Below are positions 10,734-17,290 of a stretch of DNA of 64,000 nt, piece after piece; the stretch's first letter is position 1, and the number at the start of each line of letters is the position of its first letter. Where the stretch lies: assembly GCF_028368935.1 (NCBI RefSeq), contig NZ_JAQNDK010000005.1:1366501-1430500 (forward strand). Direction: 5' to 3'. This stretch comes from Sorangium aterium (lineage in GTDB: Bacteria > Myxococcota_A > Polyangia > Polyangiales > Polyangiaceae). The notes under the pieces are model-generated. The model made no database searches. It was given only the letters and a program-made list of their open reading frames with translations, and was not told the origin of the DNA. Made by a program: the position numbers and the translations under genes.

Positions 10734-11687
10734 ATGCCTGAACCGCGCGCTGCTGCCGAGAGCTCCACACTTGCCGCTCAGTCCGGCGGTGTGCCCGGCG
10801 GCTGGAAGATGCGCATGGAGGACCCGCTCAATCGCTACTACCGGTACCCGATCGCGCGCTGGATCGTGCGGGCGCTGATGAGGACGCCGGTCACGCCGAA
10901 CCAGGTGACGCTGGTTCAGCCGCTCTTCGCTGCGCTGGCCGGTTACCTGGTGACGTTCGATGATCCGAGGCACCTCATCGCGGGGGCGCTCGTGTTCGAG
11001 CTCCGCTCCATCCTCGATTGCGTGGACGGCGCGCTGGCGCGGGCGAAGCGGATGGTGAGCCCCGCGGGGCACGCCATTGACGGCCTGGCCGACTGGCTGG
11101 GCGTCGTCTTTCTTTATGTCGGCATCTTCTGGCACGTTCGCCTTCACCCGCCGGCAGAGGGCCTGTGGAGCGCGACCGTGTCCACGAACGCTCTCCTGCT
11201 GATCGCGCTGCTCCAGGGGGCGCTCCGCTCTTTCTCCGCGGACTACTTCAAGCTCAAGTACTGCTCGATCTTCGAGACGGGTACGGACGAGACGGCGGAC
11301 GTGCTGCGCCGGAAGATCCAGGCGCTCGGCCCCTCGTCCTCGTTCTTTGCCCATTTCGATGTCTTCATCGGGCGCATGGGGCACCTCGCGTTCGAGCACG
11401 AGTGGTTCGACCCGCGGCGGAGCCAGTCCTCGACCAGCGCGGATCAGGTAAAGCAGCTGATCCGGGAGGAGGCGTCGCCGCTCACGCGCTTCATCGGCGC
11501 GCTCTGGGCGATATCGAACGGCGACGCGTTCCTGTCGATGGTGGTGCTGACGCTCCTCGTGGACCAGCTCTGGCTGGGTCAGGTCTTCTTCGCGACGGGC
11601 GGGGTCGTCTGGATCGTCGCGGTCATCTGGCTGAACGGCTGGTTCCTCCGCGGCGCATCCCGGCGCGCGAAGCTGGCCGTGGCCTGA
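10734..11687 (+). CDS. CDP-alcohol phosphatidyltransferase family protein
   Basis: A 317-residue integral membrane enzyme. It carries the complete CDP-alcohol phosphatidyltransferase signature D95-x2-DG-x2-AR-x8-G-x3-D116-x3-D120, with every position present. Several membrane helices surround it (about residues 55-75, 125-145, 165-185 and the last 60 residues). The family swaps the CMP of a CDP-activated alcohol, or of a CMP-phosphonate, for an acceptor hydroxyl, making phospholipids. It converges with the phosphonate genes, so a phosphonolipid synthase is an attractive guess. Inositol- or glycerol-phospholipid synthesis is the ordinary alternative. The start is uncertain: ATG 10734 is used, and ATG 10662 is also in frame. 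TAGAGT at 10711 could be its -10 box with a short leader. Confidence 0.8.
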   Translation: MPEPRAAAESSTLAAQSGGVPGGWKMRMEDPLNRYYRYPIARWIVRALMRTPVTPNQVTLVQPLFAALAGYLVTFDDPRHLIAGALVFELRSILDCVDGALARAKRMVSPAGHAIDGLADWLGVVFLYVGIFWHVRLHPPAEGLWSATVSTNALLLIALLQGALRSFSADYFKLKYCSIFETGTDETADVLRRKIQALGPSSSFFAHFDVFIGRMGHLAFEHEWFDPRRSQSSTSADQVKQLIREEASPLTRFIGALWAISNGDAFLSMVVLTLLVDQLWLGQVFFATGGVVWIVAVIWLNGWFLRGASRRAKLAVA

Positions 11688-11727
11688 GCTCGGCGACTGG
11701 GCTGCGCCGCGCCGAGCTCGGGCCGCT

Positions 11728-12435
11728 CTAGAGGGAGCTCGCCAGGCGGCGGGCCTTCTCCACGTCCTCTTCGAAGTCGATCTCGGTCCAGGGAAGGTCG
11801 TCGACGCGCTCGATACCGAACGGTATCTCCTGGAAAGCGCGGTCCATCGCGGCCTCGTACTCCTGATCGAGGCGGCCTGCGGAGACCTCCTCCTCAAGGA
11901 GCCGCTGCATCGCGCGGCCGCCCTGCGGACCGACCTTGGCGAAGCCGACGGTCTCGCCGGCGATGTCCCAGTCCTTGCCTACGCGGCGCGCGATCTTGAG
12001 GACGCGGCCGGCGCGGACGCCGACCATCATCTCTTCGCCGCTCTCCTCCGAGCTCGCGTCGACAAGCAGGCAGTTCTCCTGCGGCGAGCTCACCAGGCGC
12101 CGCAGCAGCGCGGCGGGGTACAGCACGTCGGCGTCCATCCACAGCCCGCCGCCCGACAGCCGATCGGCCGCGACGTGGAGCGAGACGATGCTGCCGTGGG
12201 TGAACCGCGGGTTCTTGACGAGCTCGACCTTCAGCGAAGGGCGGAGCGAGGCGAGCGCCTCCTCGATCATCTCGTGCCGGAAGCCGACGACGATCGTCAG
12301 ATCGGTGACGCCGCTCTCGGTGAGGTTCACGAGGTGGCGCTCGAGCAGCGTCTTGCCCTCGATCGAGATGAGGCACTTCGGCGCGTCCCGGCCGATGCGC
12401 CGGCCGCGGCCGGCGGCGAGCAGGATCGCCCTCAT
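11728..12435 (-). CDS. MobA/LicC-like nucleotidyltransferase, probably a cytidylyltransferase
   Basis: A 235-residue single-domain nucleotidyltransferase. The N-terminal signature LLAAGRGRRIGRDAPKCL matches the nucleotide-binding loop of sugar-phosphate and phosphocholine cytidylyltransferases (LicC, IspD-like, MobA-like superfamily). WMDADVLYP is the metal-binding aspartate motif, and the C-terminal WTEIDFEEDVEKA is typical of LicC-like enzymes. The ATG overlaps the TGA of the decarboxylase beta gene by 4 bases, so translation is coupled and the gene belongs to the phosphonate operon. Inference: it activates a phosphonate or a polar head group with CTP. It is the second such domain here, because the PepM protein carries another. 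Confidence 0.78.
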   Translation of the reverse strand: MRAILLAAGRGRRIGRDAPKCLISIEGKTLLERHLVNLTESGVTDLTIVVGFRHEMIEEALASLRPSLKVELVKNPRFTHGSIVSLHVAADRLSGGGLWMDADVLYPAALLRRLVSSPQENCLLVDASSEESGEEMMVGVRAGRVLKIARRVGKDWDIAGETVGFAKVGPQGGRAMQRLLEEEVSAGRLDQEYEAAMDRAFQEIPFGIERVDDLPWTEIDFEEDVEKARRLASSL

Positions 12436-12995
12436 CGGCGCGCCTCGGCCGCGAAGCGGGAGGCGAGCTCCTGCGGGGTCTCCGCGACGCGGCCGATGCC
12501 CTTCACGGTGCCGCCGTCGACGAGGGCGAGGACCATCACCGGGCCCGGCTGCACGAGCGCGACGCGCAGCGACGCCTCGAAGGACTCGACGGAGTCGGCG
12601 CGGTGCGTGGCGCGGTAGCCGACGGCGCTGGCGACCGACTCGAGCTTCACGTCGCCCGAGATCGTCCGCTGCCCGCCCGTCGAGGCGTGGGAGCGGTTGT
12701 CGAGGACGACGTGCACGAGGTTCGCCGGCCGCTCGCTGCCGACGCTGGCGAGGGCGTTCATGCCCATGAGGACGTTGCCGTCGCCGTCGAGCACGAAGAT
12801 CCGCTTGCGCGGCTGCGCGAGCGCGAGCCCCAGGCCGATCGACAGGCCGAGCCCCATCGAGCCGATCATGTAGAAGTTCGAGGGCCGGTCCTGCGTCGTG
12901 TAGAGCTCGCGGCCGATCATGCCGTTGCAGCAGACCACGAGGTCGTCCTTGCCGACCGCCGCCGTGAACACCTTCAGCGCTTCGAGCTTGTTCAT
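12432..12995 (-). CDS. phosphonopyruvate decarboxylase, C-terminal (TPP-binding) subunit
   Basis: A 187-residue protein equivalent to the C-terminal half of thiamine-diphosphate enzymes. The TPP/Mg motif is LDGDGNVLMGMNALASVG with a downstream DN (D70-G-D-G-N and N100). The phrase NRSHASTGGQ is typical of phosphonopyruvate and sulfopyruvate decarboxylase beta chains. With the alpha chain it would convert phosphonopyruvate to phosphonoacetaldehyde and CO2, the step that makes phosphonate synthesis thermodynamically favourable. Its ATG overlaps the alpha stop by 4 bases (ATGA). Sulfopyruvate decarboxylase is the closest alternative, but the PepM next door favours phosphonopyruvate. Confidence 0.85.
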   Translation of the reverse strand: MNKLEALKVFTAAVGKDDLVVCCNGMIGRELYTTQDRPSNFYMIGSMGLGLSIGLGLALAQPRKRIFVLDGDGNVLMGMNALASVGSERPANLVHVVLDNRSHASTGGQRTISGDVKLESVASAVGYRATHRADSVESFEASLRVALVQPGPVMVLALVDGGTVKGIGRVAETPQELASRFAAEARR

Positions 12996-13513
12996 TCGAG
13001 CACCCCCGCGGGCACGATGAGCGCCGCCGGCTGCCTGGTGGAGAGCATGACGTCCTTCGCCCACTGCACCTGGGGCCCCATCGGCTCGGCGGCCCGGAGG
13101 ACGCGGTGCTGGATCTTCATCAGATCGAGGATGGGGAGCATGATCTCGCCCATCATGATGTGCTCCGGGGCGTCGTTGCCGCCCTCGCCGCGCCACGAGA
13201 TGACGAGCAGCGCGGGCACCTCATACATCGTGCTGAGCGAGGCCAGCGCGTTCACGGAGACGCCGAGCCCGGAGTTCTGCATCAGCACCATCGGCAGCCT
13301 GCCGCCGAGCCAGGCGCCGAACGCCATCCCGATGGCGCTGTCCTCGCGGGTCGCCGAGATGTAACGAGCGCTCGGGTCAGCGTCGAGCAGCGAGACCAGG
13401 CCCTTCAGCAGCGAGCAGGGCACGCCCGCGAAGAAGTCGAACCCCGCCTCCTTGAGCGCGGCGACGAACTCGGGCGCATACGATTTTCCTGAACCGTGGG
13501 AACCGTGGGACAT
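12992..13513 (-). CDS. phosphonopyruvate decarboxylase, N-terminal (TPP-activating) subunit
   Basis: A 173-residue protein equivalent to the N-terminal PYR domain of thiamine-diphosphate decarboxylases. It contains GVPCSLLKGL and ATREDSAIGMAFGAWLGG, where the glutamate of the REDSA motif activates TPP. MQNSGLGVSVNALASL is also characteristic of phosphonopyruvate and sulfopyruvate decarboxylases. In many phosphonate pathways this enzyme is one polypeptide; here it is split into two coupled genes. The gene lies 4 bases downstream of the PepM fusion gene, so the order is pepM-cytidylyltransferase, alpha, beta, nucleotidyltransferase. Confidence 0.85.
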   Translation of the reverse strand: MSHGSHGSGKSYAPEFVAALKEAGFDFFAGVPCSLLKGLVSLLDADPSARYISATREDSAIGMAFGAWLGGRLPMVLMQNSGLGVSVNALASLSTMYEVPALLVISWRGEGGNDAPEHIMMGEIMLPILDLMKIQHRVLRAAEPMGPQVQWAKDVMLSTRQPAALIVPAGVLE

Positions 13514-13517
13514 CGCC

Positions 13518-15182
13518 TCACTCCTTGATGAGCGCCCAGGCGCGACGGTAGTCCTCGAACGTGTCGATCTCGAGCCACCCCTTGTAGACGTCGATCGCCT
13601 GCACGTCCGCGCCGCGGTCGATGAGCTCCTGGAGCAGGTCGGTGAAGCTCGCGCTGCGGAGCGACTCGGCCTCGTGGAAGCCGCCCTTCGCGCGGGTCTC
13701 CTGGAGCTGGTGGTAGCAGTCGGTGAGCAGGCGCGCGCCCTTCGCGGTGAACATGGCCATGCCCACGAACTCGCCGTGCGCCTCGCCCGCAGGGATCGCG
13801 CGTCCGACGCGGGCCACCCGGTGCGGCGCCTCGGCGCCGACGAAGCGGTAGCCGGCCTCCTGCGCGTCCTTCAGGGCCACGAGGTCGGGCACGCCGCGCG
13901 CGTCCTTGGGCCGCTGGCCCTCGGCGTACGCGCGGTCGATGACGATCGAGATGTCCGCCGGGCTCTTGAGGAGCTTCTCGAGGTGGCCGCGCTCGAACAC
14001 GATGTCGCCGTAGAGGAACAGGAACGGCCCGCTCAGCTCCTTGGAGGCGCGGAAGAGCGAGAAGACCTCGTTCGTCGTCGCGTACTCGTCGTTGTCGTAG
14101 AAGCGGGCGTTCGGGACCTTGATCGCCTCCTTCTTGTACCCGCGCACGACGGCGACGTCCTTGACGCCGCACGCGTTGAGCACGTCGATCTGCCGCTCGA
14201 GGATGCTCTTGCCCTTCAGGTCGAGCATCGGCTTCGGCAGCTCCTCCGTGAGCGGCAGGAGCCCCTGGCTCTGGCCGGCGGCGAGGATGACGGCGGTGAC
14301 GCCCGGGCTGCCGGAGGGCAGGAAGCTCGACTCCTCCTGCTTCATCTTGTCGACGCCCACGAGCTGGTAGACGCGCTCGAGCGGCACGACCTTGTCGTCG
14401 ACGCTGCCGGTGTACATCTCGCGCTTCAGCGTCTGGAGCGTCTCCGTCATCGCCTTGATCGACGAGCGGATCGCGTGGTTCGCGAAGATGATCAGCTTGA
14501 AGCCCGCCTTGTGCAGGGTGTCGACGCTCGTCGTGCGGTAGATGGTCGGCACGCAGACGAGCGGCGTGTTCGGGCGGTCCCACGCGCGGGCGAAGGAGAG
14601 CACCTCGTCCGGGTCCTTGCTCTTCGAGTGGATGAGGACCATGTCGGCGCCCGCGTCCGCGTAGGCGCGGCCGCGGCGGAGCGCCTCCTCCATCCCCCAG
14701 CCGGCGATGAGCGCCTCGGTCCGCGCGATGACCACGAAGTCGCGATCCTTCTGCGTCGCCTTCGCCGCGCGGACCTTGAGCGCGTGCTCCTCGACGTCCG
14801 CGAGCTCGCGCTTCACGCCGGCGTAGAAGCTGCAGCGCTTCGGGAAGATGTTGTCTTCCATGCAGATCGCCGCGATGCCCGCCGCCTCGTACTCCTCGAC
14901 GCAGCGGACGACGTTGACGGCGTTGCCGTAGCCGTTGTCGCAGTCGGCGACGACCGGGAGCGACGTGTTGTTCATCATCTTGGCGGCCTGGAGGTTCTCC
15001 GCCATCGTGAGGATGTTCGCGTCCGGCACGGCGTAGCTCGCGGATATCTCGAAGCCGGAAGCCCAGAGCCCGTCGAACCCTGCCTCTTCACCGATCTTCG
15101 CGGAGAGCCCGTTGTGCGCGCCGATGATGACGATCGGCCCGGGGCGGGCCATGAGTTCGCGCAGCTTCCTGGCTTTGGTCAC
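13518..15182 (-). CDS. pepM: phosphoenolpyruvate mutase fused to a cytidylyltransferase domain (PepM-PntC type)
   Basis: A 554-residue fusion. Residues 1-285 are a PEP mutase/isocitrate lyase-superfamily barrel with GLWASGFEISASY, the metal ligands D80 and D82 in ADCDNGYGN, R154 in ARTEALIAG and the HSKSKDP motif typical of PEP mutases. Residues 295-554 are a nucleotidyltransferase (VILAAGQSQGLLPLTEELPKPM, LYGDIVFE), as in PepM-PntC fusions that make CMP-activated phosphonates. The loop normally reading EDK-x5-NS is E109-D110-N111-x5-C117-S118 here, so two hallmark residues differ. I chose the GTG at 15182 because GGAGGAG lies about 5 bases upstream; an ATG at 15218 would add 12 residues. It is the first gene of the operon. 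The 333 bases upstream hold no gene and probably the promoter. Confidence 0.85.
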   Translation of the reverse strand: MTKARKLRELMARPGPIVIIGAHNGLSAKIGEEAGFDGLWASGFEISASYAVPDANILTMAENLQAAKMMNNTSLPVVADCDNGYGNAVNVVRCVEEYEAAGIAAICMEDNIFPKRCSFYAGVKRELADVEEHALKVRAAKATQKDRDFVVIARTEALIAGWGMEEALRRGRAYADAGADMVLIHSKSKDPDEVLSFARAWDRPNTPLVCVPTIYRTTSVDTLHKAGFKLIIFANHAIRSSIKAMTETLQTLKREMYTGSVDDKVVPLERVYQLVGVDKMKQEESSFLPSGSPGVTAVILAAGQSQGLLPLTEELPKPMLDLKGKSILERQIDVLNACGVKDVAVVRGYKKEAIKVPNARFYDNDEYATTNEVFSLFRASKELSGPFLFLYGDIVFERGHLEKLLKSPADISIVIDRAYAEGQRPKDARGVPDLVALKDAQEAGYRFVGAEAPHRVARVGRAIPAGEAHGEFVGMAMFTAKGARLLTDCYHQLQETRAKGGFHEAESLRSASFTDLLQELIDRGADVQAIDVYKGWLEIDTFEDYRRAWALIKE

Positions 15183-15515
15183 GTCTCCTCCACTCCTCCG
15201 CGCGGCGTTGCCATCCACGCCCGGCGGGCGACCGCGTCCGCATGCGTTGCGGTGCGCGTCCCCGGCGAGCGGCGCCCCGTCGTCACCGCGCGCGGGCAGC
15301 TCCGGGGGGCGCCTGATCTCGCTCTCCTCCCCGAGGAGCCGGGCCTCAGAACGGGGCCTGCCTTAACACCGTTCGCCAGTGCCGCCAATGGCAGGGCACG
15401 ACCGGAGCAGACGATCGCGAAGGCGGCGGAGCGCGCTCCGCCACGCGGGGACGTGCGCGCTGCGGCGGTGCCTGATGGCGGGCGCGCGCGATGCTCGCCG
15501 CGCGCCCCCTTCGGC

Positions 15516-15827
15516 TCAGCCCTCGCGGCCGACGACCCCGCGCAAGCGGACCAGCCCGGGGCCCGCGCGGAGCACCGCCTGGCACGCGAGCCGGAGCCGC
15601 GGCGGGGCGCCGAGGCGCTCGAGCAGATCGAGCTCGCCGCGCGCGGGCGGATCGAGGAGCTGCTCCCCTTCGACGACCTCGACGCGGCATGTGGCGCAGC
15701 GCGCGTCGCGGCACGAGAAAACGACCGGAGCGCGCGCGTCGTCGCAGACATCGATGAGCCTGCCGGCTCCCACCTCCGCGGTGACGGCGCGGCCGAGCGC
15801 GCCGTCCTCGAACACGACCGTGGGCAC
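15516..15827 (-). CDS. [2Fe-2S] ferredoxin-like protein
   Basis: A 103-residue small electron-transfer protein. The cluster ligands follow the plant/adrenodoxin pattern: C-x4-C-x2-C in SCRDARCATCRV, then a fourth cysteine about 35 residues later in LACQAVL. The preceding beta-grasp sequence with DVCDDARAPVVF fits the family. A GTG start at 15827 is favoured by a GGAGGAGGG ribosome site about 9 bases upstream. It lies in the same direction as the phosphonate operon but 333 bases before it, and is divergent from the FAD oxidoreductase at 16001. Inference: it could feed electrons to that flavoprotein or to an unlinked oxygenase. Confidence 0.8.
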   Translation of the reverse strand: MPTVVFEDGALGRAVTAEVGAGRLIDVCDDARAPVVFSCRDARCATCRVEVVEGEQLLDPPARGELDLLERLGAPPRLRLACQAVLRAGPGLVRLRGVVGREG

Positions 15828-15987
15828 CGCCGATCCCTCCTCCCTGCGTGGCGCGCGAAGCCCTGGCACGTGGGTGCGCGAGGACCCGCGGCGCCTGGAG
15901 CGCGAGGGCCCCGGCCCGGACGGCGGAGGCGTGTCGGCTCCCTTTCACCGACGCCGAGAGCGCATTTTCTCGGGCGTCAGCACGCAT

Positions 15988-15993
15988 TATACG
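15988..15993 (+). promoter_or_regulatory. candidate -10 box TATACG, leaderless promoter
   Basis: TATACG ends 7 bases before the ATG at 16001, in a locally AT-rich stretch. It departs from TANNNT at the last base but keeps the spacing. Confidence 0.35.
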
Positions 15994-16000
15994 ACGAGCG

Positions 16001-17290
16001 ATGACGGATCGCTGGGACGCAATCATCCTCGGCGGAGGGCCGGGTGGGTCGACGCTCGCCGCGTCGCTTGCCCGCCTCGGTCGCCGGGCCCTCGTGCTCG
16101 AGCGGGAGAGGTTCCCTCGCTTTCACATCGGCGAGTCGCTGCTGCCGCGATCCCGCGAGGTCTTCGAGCGGCTCGGGCTGGACGAGAAGCTGGACGCGCG
16201 CTTCCTCCGCAAATACGGCGCCCGGTTCCTGTGCTCGTCGACGGGGCGGACGCGGACGTACAGCTTCACCGACGCGTTCGATCCGAGGTTCGAGTTCGCC
16301 TACCAGGTGGAGCGCGACGCGTTCGACCAGCTGCTGCTGCGCCACGCCGCGGAGCTCGGGGCGGAGGTGCGCGAGTCGTGGGAGGCCGTCGAGGTGGTGT
16401 TCGAGGGCCCCCGCGCCGTCGGGGTGCGCGCGCGGCCTCGCGCGCGATCCGACGGCGCCGCGCCGGAGGAGGCCGCGGCCGCGCGCGCCGACGCGGGCGA
16501 CGTCGTCGAGCTCCGGGCGCCGGTGATCGTGGACGCGACGGGGCGGGACACGCTGCTCGCGTCGAGGATGCGGCGGAAGGCGCAGCTGGCCGAGCTCGAC
16601 AAGACCGCGCTGTTCACCCATTACGAGGGCGTGCCCCGCGAGGAGGGGATCCACCAGGGCAACATCCAGGTGGTCATCTTCGAGCATGGATGGTTCTGGT
16701 TCATCCCGTTCCGCGGCGAGGTGACGAGCGTCGGCGCGGTGGTGTCGTCGCGCTGGATCCGGAGCCGGGCGAAGGGGGAGCGGCTCGACGAGCTCTTCGA
16801 TCGCACCGTCGCGGAGAGCGGCTGGGCGCGGGAGTTCCTCGCGAGCGCGCGGCGCGTCAGGCCGGTGGGGGCGCTCGCCGATTTCTCGTACCGGATCGAC
16901 CAGCTCGCCGGCGACGGATGGCTCTTCGTCGGCGACGCGGGCGGGTTCCTCGACCCGCTCTTCTCGACGGGCGCACACCTCGCCATCAAGGGCGCCGATC
17001 TGGCCGCCACGGCCATCCACCGCGCGCTCGACGCGGGGGACACCTCCCGCGCCGCGTTCGCCGCCTACGAGGCGGAGATCCGCTACGCCGTCGACCTCTT
17101 CCTTGGGGTCGTTCAGGGTTTTTACAAAGGTCAGTTCCGGGAGACCCTGTTCGAGCCGAACCAGCGGCCCACGATGCGCAAGCTCATCACCAGCATGCTC
17201 GCGGGCGACGTGTTCCACGCCGAGCGGCGGCCGCAGTGGGCGTCGTTCCTCCGGCAGCACTATCCGGCGGAGGTGCCCGCCTTCGCGTGA
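16001..17290 (+). CDS. FAD-dependent oxidoreductase of the tryptophan-halogenase/geranylgeranyl-reductase superfamily
   Basis: A 429-residue flavoprotein. Residues 9-16 are the dinucleotide-binding LGGGPGGS. HIGESLLPRS and VERDAFDQLLL are typical of the halogenase/reductase group, and DAGGFLDPLFSTGAHLA is the second FAD motif. W231-F-W233-F-I235-P236 fits the WxWxIP signature used to recognise flavin-dependent halogenases, which blocks monooxygenase chemistry. I cannot confidently place the catalytic lysine of true halogenases, so a reductase or hydroxylase remains possible. The ATG at 16001 follows TATACG by 7 bases. No biosynthetic megasynthase is adjacent. It is divergent from a ferredoxin gene. 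Confidence 0.78.
   Translation: MTDRWDAIILGGGPGGSTLAASLARLGRRALVLERERFPRFHIGESLLPRSREVFERLGLDEKLDARFLRKYGARFLCSSTGRTRTYSFTDAFDPRFEFAYQVERDAFDQLLLRHAAELGAEVRESWEAVEVVFEGPRAVGVRARPRARSDGAAPEEAAAARADAGDVVELRAPVIVDATGRDTLLASRMRRKAQLAELDKTALFTHYEGVPREEGIHQGNIQVVIFEHGWFWFIPFRGEVTSVGAVVSSRWIRSRAKGERLDELFDRTVAESGWAREFLASARRVRPVGALADFSYRIDQLAGDGWLFVGDAGGFLDPLFSTGAHLAIKGADLAATAIHRALDAGDTSRAAFAAYEAEIRYAVDLFLGVVQGFYKGQFRETLFEPNQRPTMRKLITSMLAGDVFHAERRPQWASFLRQHYPAEVPAFA

Follow-up and report, generated by a model that had tools for sequence, protein, structure and literature searches.

Phosphonolipid clusters have been described in Burkholderia and in lichen Nostoc; they contain pepM, ppd, AEPT, NTPT, a CDP-alcohol phosphatidyltransferase gene and hpnL (PMC5987646 Fig. 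7, after Yu 2013). The locus analysed here lies in a stretch of 64,000 nucleotides of Sorangium aterium (NZ_JAQNDK010000005.1, positions 1,366,501 to 1,430,500; genome of 13.47 Mb), hereafter called the window; coordinates without prefix are those of the window. G, L and C numbers refer to genomes, loci and contigs of the study. Judged from its sequence, the locus very probably encodes a phosphonate pathway composed of a phosphoenolpyruvate (PEP) mutase-like/nucleotidyltransferase (NTP) fusion, a split phosphonopyruvate decarboxylase (Ppd), a PntC-like enzyme and a CDP-alcohol phosphotransferase. As in the Burkholderia and Nostoc clusters, the genes for a PEP mutase, a decarboxylase, a nucleotidyltransferase and a CDP-alcohol transferase are found together. 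Unlike in these clusters, the mutase carries EDNX5CS and continues into an NTP domain, two genes encode the halves of Ppd, and the operon contains neither AEPT nor hpnL. Canonical Polyangiales loci of the type pepM-NTP/ppd/aepT/CDP-OH/NTP (L051-L053, L057) share with the window the five functions, the fusion and a linked CDP-OH transferase, but their mutase, about 40% identical, has EDKX5NS, their Ppd is a fused chain and aepT is present. The operon would rather probably make a C2 phosphonate activated by cytidine monophosphate (CMP), the phosphonyl group of which is moved to an alcohol, for which a lipid such as diacylglycerol is the likeliest candidate.

The four genes of the operon are on the minus strand. 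The fusion gene (13518..15182, GTG start at 15182, stop at 13518) is followed after 4 bases (13514-13517) by ppdA (12992..13513, N-terminal thiamine pyrophosphate (TPP) half of Ppd), ppdB (12432..12995, C-terminal TPP half) and the pntC-like gene (11728..12435; gene 4, product NTP2). ATGA overlaps link ppdA to ppdB (12992..12995) and ppdB to the pntC-like gene (12432..12435). The CDP-alcohol phosphotransferase gene (10734..11687, plus strand) converges on the pntC-like gene across a 40-base gap; it starts at 10734 or at 10809, the latter being favoured by homologues. Sequence and Pfam thus place the five genes, the short gap, the two overlaps and the converging transferase exactly as the sequence-only reading had described them. 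The Pfam E-values (PEP_mutase, 3.5e-59; NTP_transf_3, 1.6e-16 and 1.7e-12; TPP halves, 5.4e-17 and 4.3e-8; CDP-OH_P_transf, PF01066, 1.5e-12) put the domain assignments far above chance. Against TIGR03297, a single-chain model with a cut-off of 312.5, PpdA scores 143.8 bits (profile 1-155) and PpdB 172.4 bits (profile 171-357), a sum of 316. Sulfopyruvate decarboxylase was rejected as an identity of PpdA/PpdB (TIGR03845/TIGR03846, 132.4/157.0, below the cut-offs of 147.95/221.5). Two further Sorangium genomes have the same gene order, and relatives carry the genes either linked or unlinked. The operon proteins are 90-96% identical to those of So0157-2 and 82-93% to those of So ceGT47, and all frames are open in all three genomes.

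From gene content, conserved residues, co-occurrence and phylogeny, all observed here, we infer every reaction, the head group and the acceptor. The PEP mutase-like domain would convert PEP to phosphonopyruvate despite the absence of EDKX5NS. The split TPP enzyme PpdA/PpdB would irreversibly convert phosphonopyruvate to phosphonoacetaldehyde, from which an unlinked transaminase would give 2-aminoethylphosphonate (AEP), a hydroxyethyl compound being less likely. The PntC-like enzyme would form the CMP-phosphonate. At the membrane CDP-alcohol phosphotransferase, an alcohol would then displace CMP.

The PEP mutase-like domain corresponds to residues 1-290 of the fusion (PF13714, 3.5e-59). The AlphaFold model of the fusion (pLDDT 89.5) has the PEP mutase 5unc as top fold match, with a TM-score of 0.96 over the target. 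PEP mutases are the top matches in both fold and sequence and outrank most of the family; phosphonopyruvate hydrolase is close and lyases are far behind. The signature loop (14829..14858, minus strand) reads EDNIFPKRCS and replaces EDKXXXXXNS, a change found in 38/38 variants and 0/48 canonical proteins. Mutase positions are given in Mytilus numbering. Residues W44, S46, D58, D85, D87, E114, K120, S123, R159 and H190 are retained in the alignment of all 38 variants, each of which also has the variant-specific residues N or Q116, R121, C122 and F48. The canonical PEP mutases (Mytilus 1M1B, Streptomyces 5UNC) share the fold and the catalytic residues outside the loop with the window domain, in which K116 is changed to N, T121 to R, N122 to C and L48 to F. 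The name PepM given earlier to this protein is thus right for the fold and for the catalytic residues outside the loop, but the loop EDNIFPKRCS makes it a motif-violating relative and not a canonical member. The domain, called variant PepM below, probably still acts as a PEP mutase making phosphonopyruvate, because variant loci carry a decarboxylase, an AEP transaminase and PntC, and because an unlinked Ppd occurs where none is linked.

Co-occurrence was scored in 184 Polyangiales genomes, 39 with PepM and 145 mutase-less. Ppd is present in 38/39 PepM genomes vs 2/145 mutase-less ones (Fisher p 8e-36). Where Ppd is not linked, in four variant genomes, exactly one copy is present elsewhere in each, a fused chain (p 8e-7); these p values overstate the evidence because the genomes are related and not independent. 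The unlinked Ppd of G170 is above the curated phosphonopyruvate decarboxylase cut-off, and those of G169, G116 and G053 share 63-65% identity with it. G050 and G053, from another Polyangiales family, have all five functions on scattered loci (L049, L050, L166, L167, L210, L211, L212). Thirteen variant loci, mostly from Planctomycetota, have the mutase gene followed by ppdA, ppdB, aepT and a separate NTP gene; a CDP-OH transferase was detected in nine of them, and several of the others stop at contig ends. In G171, which belongs to the genus of two variant genomes, a canonical EDKX5NS PepM is found alongside orthologues of Ppd, NTP2 and the CDP-OH transferase, and variant PepM was not found in this 92% complete bin. 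A natural swap of canonical for variant mutase is suggested, not proven, given this completeness. Aldehyde dehydrogenase genes are added in acidobacterial variant loci (L091:8813-10201, L125:10413-13627), with a relative of phosphonoacetaldehyde dehydrogenase encoded in L091; L125 further encodes an HpnL-like membrane protein and a CDP-alcohol transferase-domain protein matching IPCT-DIPPS.

Within Polyangiales, ten genomes encode a mutase at least 57% identical to that of the window, all with EDN.FPKRCSFY; a second set, about 40% identical, has EDK.FPKTNS where read. Scanning the GTDB genome collection gave 28 further variant loci in Planctomycetota, Binatota, Acidobacteriota and Myxococcota. 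It also gave a canonical sister set, mostly with EDK.FPKVNS, from Omnitrophota, Scalindua, Desulfobacca, archaea and others. Variants and canonical proteins are split in the tree with a support of 100/100, and of 100/99 after the signature columns were dropped; phosphonopyruvate hydrolase groups with the canonical proteins, as do the PEP mutases of Mytilus and Streptomyces. Rooting with two lyase outgroups places the root next to or within the variants, and a variant clade is not rejected (approximately unbiased test, AU p 0.58). The EDNX5CS proteins may, at somewhat less than even odds, represent a deep-branching line of functional PEP mutases in which the Lys-Arg-Cys loop of the ancestral C-C lyases has been retained. 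Three surveys required EDKX5NS for accepting a PepM (PMC6697681, PMC8931226, PMC12723261); Ppm-NTP fusions are common, and in one of these surveys 22 fused proteins without the motif were set aside (Rice 2019, PMC6697681). Since it does not have EDKX5NS, the variant branch is missed by surveys that use this motif to recognise phosphonate producers. No description of the EDNX5CS branch was found in a partial literature search, which does not prove novelty; what appears new is the off-signature branch with its operon context, the type of pathway being already known.

Two NTP domains are encoded by the operon. The fused one (residues 295-554; 13518..14300, minus strand; PF12804, 1.7e-12) and NTP2 were both scored with the catalytic residues of PntC from Treponema denticola (PMC6697681), whose activity falls below 10% when the signature Arg is changed to Ala (PMC6697681). 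In the fused domain of the window protein, the catalytic Lys and the two metal Asp are in place, and the Arg of GXG(T/S)R is absent. Among the variants, R15 is missing from this domain in 38/38, the Lys is present in 37/38 and the two metal Asp are present in all aligned members. Canonical PepM-NTP fusions (L093-L139) have lost the Lys of the fused domain in 42/49 and the metal Asp D222 in at least 40/49; many of them may be inactive nucleotidyltransferases. The closest solved relative of NTP2 is T. denticola PntC-AepT (Tde1415, PDB 6PD1/6PD2; 6pd1, E 6.5e-14 over residues 2-228), with which the CMP-AEP catalytic residues are shared; inositol-1-phosphate cytidylyltransferase gives 6.4e-5. T. 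denticola PntC, an enzyme that makes CMP-AEP, is fused to a transaminase, whereas NTP2 is separate and has no linked transaminase. NTP2 keeps R15, K25, D106, E196 and D222, with K153 changed to R and E104 to D. Its signature is that of PntC, reading GRGRR..PK for GXG(T/S)R..PK, with R in place of (T/S). Its residues agree with those of the characterised PntC in 21/21 variant operons, except for gaps in one truncated copy. The product of gene 4 is likely the cytidylyltransferase, because the fused domain lacks R15 and NTP2 keeps the full set; the fused domain is probably not the main one. The CMP-activated phosphonate had earlier been attributed to the fused domain, and this attribution is abandoned.

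The head group was sought in the window and then in whole genomes. Profile searches found no match to an AEP transaminase or to the phosphonoacetaldehyde reductase family in the window, in line with the earlier statement that it holds no aminotransferase or dehydrogenase for the aldehyde. The genome-wide search proposed at that time gave a candidate transaminase, in this genome only, and no reductase above cut-off. The candidate is the single TIGR03301 match of the window genome (382.8, cut-off 360.8; C5:605329-606393), about 771 kb from the operon; none of the other 12 genomes tested has a match above cut-off. The TIGR03301 domain is fused to a GFO/IDH/MocA oxidoreductase and is encoded beside two TauD dioxygenase genes and an ATP-grasp gene (L206:6307-11304; G000:C5:602306-607303); this cluster may serve another product. 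Operon-type AepT was found in 26/29 canonical genomes and in G050 and G053. The phosphonoacetaldehyde reductase model TIGR03405 (iron alcohol dehydrogenase) is above cut-off in 0/10 genomes, and a hydroxyethylphosphonate route through an iron alcohol dehydrogenase of this type was rejected, weak matches being also present in operon-less Sorangium. Since NTP2 is unchanged, AEP is weakly favoured as head group. The pocket residues of NTP2 are alike in operons with and without AepT, so the pocket does not settle the head group.

The CDP-alcohol phosphotransferase has an intact motif D-x2-DG-x2-AR-x8-G-x3-D-x3-D (DCVDGALARAKRMVSPAGHAIDGLAD), as have its orthologues. Orthologues with at least 49% identity occur in 9/39 phosphonate genomes, namely 8/8 Polyangiaceae with variant PepM plus G171. 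Among the 145 mutase-less genomes of the order, one (G167) has such an orthologue, and its operon lacks most of the variant pepM; none was found at this threshold in the other 144. Close orthologues are thus almost confined to phosphonate genomes; conservation of the gene where the operon is absent would have spoken against the earlier reading and was not seen. This co-occurrence supports a phosphonate pathway that includes CMP activation and has a CDP-alcohol phosphotransferase of its own. More distant CDP-alcohol phosphotransferases adjoin canonical pepM in many Polyangiales. In G110, the transferase beside the operon is truncated and a full copy is present elsewhere in the genome. In G167, a Sorangium, 1.63 kb corresponding to window 13641-15274, nearly all of it variant pepM, is missing (L208:7020-7250), by natural deletion or assembly artefact; ppdA, ppdB, pntC and the transferase gene are retained. 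As final acceptor, we infer a lipid.

Several points weigh against a phosphonolipid pathway. The EDKXXXXXNS motif of canonical PEP mutases is not present in the window protein, which scores 292.1 bits with the PEP mutase model TIGR02320, below its cut-off of 319.6. The fusion occurs without recognised pathway neighbours in Binatota, some Myxococcota and some Planctomycetota (L066-L073, L075, L077, L081; Ppd was not searched elsewhere in those genomes). Operon-type AepT is missing from the genomes of 8/8 Polyangiaceae with variant PepM, and the association with Ppd is counted over related genomes. It is nevertheless very unlikely that the domain has C-C bond lyase or phosphonopyruvate hydrolase activity in place of mutase activity and that the locus does not serve phosphonate synthesis. 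The hydrolase model TIGR02321 gives 283.6 bits, nearly the mutase score but below its cut-off of 374.4. The Variovorax hydrolase (2DUA) shares the fold and Phe48 with variant PepM; unlike it, this enzyme has Thr at 122, retains EDK (loop EDKTFPKDTS) and groups with the canonical mutases in the tree. Hydrolase identity was rejected on Cys122, the TIGR02321 score, the tree and the neighbours. The Lys-Arg-Cys of the loop matches methylisocitrate lyase-type enzymes (EDQ..KRCGH); two such enzymes from the genomes studied have EDQV.PKRCGH (EDQVAPKRCGH in the window genome), and C123S structures carry their mutation at this Cys. These enzymes are, however, about 26-33% identical to variant PepM, have Gly-His behind the Cys and lack H190; in variant PepM, SF comes after KRC, and the mutase-type residues H190 and S123 are present. 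Isocitrate lyase/methylisocitrate lyase identity was rejected because K-[KR]-C-G-H is not matched and the tree and the neighbours disagree. Tight association with Ppd, and in Planctomycetota with an AEP transaminase, argues against both enzymes. Decay of the locus in this lineage is more improbable still: G167 has kept the other genes without variant pepM, the operon is absent from two Sorangium genomes and aepT is missing across the Polyangiaceae branch, but in the window genome and two congeners the frames are open, the proteins are similar to the extent given above and all checked catalytic residues are kept.

In NCBIfam, the transferase matches archaetidylinositol phosphate synthase and IPCT-DIPPS best, and IPCT-DIPPS is also the best match of NTP2; in an acidobacterial locus the CDP-OH domain is inside a longer protein that matches IPCT-DIPPS as well. 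A glycan, inositol or some other alcohol could be the acceptor instead, a further point against a lipid. A phosphonoglycan or other CMP-phosphonate product, with a transferase acting on inositol or a sugar alcohol, is nevertheless considered unlikely, since all these scores are far under the curated cut-offs and, of the solved structures, PntC is nearer to NTP2 than inositol-1-phosphate cytidylyltransferase is. Inspection of the operon's surroundings showed no glycosyltransferase or LicD-like gene, no search having been made. Two products, from activation of different groups by the fused domain and NTP2, are a little less likely again: the fused domain of the variants has kept its metal Asp and almost always its Lys, but it has everywhere lost the signature Arg, most canonical relatives have also lost the Lys and a metal Asp, and the full catalytic set is found in NTP2 only.

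Two genes upstream of the operon (15516-17290), for a 2Fe-2S ferredoxin-like protein and a halogenase-like flavoprotein, are kept in So0157-2 and So ceGT47.

If the EDNX5CS proteins are working PEP mutases, EDKX5NS would be dispensable for the formation of the C-P bond, a conserved Cys standing in for Asn122. Counts of producers based on the motif would then overlook lineages of Planctomycetota, Binatota, Acidobacteriota and Polyangia, and phosphonate producers would be undercounted in several phyla. The branch would also provide a natural comparison for the residues that turn a C-C lyase fold into a maker of C-P bonds. Sorangium and Minicystis would offer a simple cultured system in which a bacterial phosphonolipid pathway could be proved from end to end.

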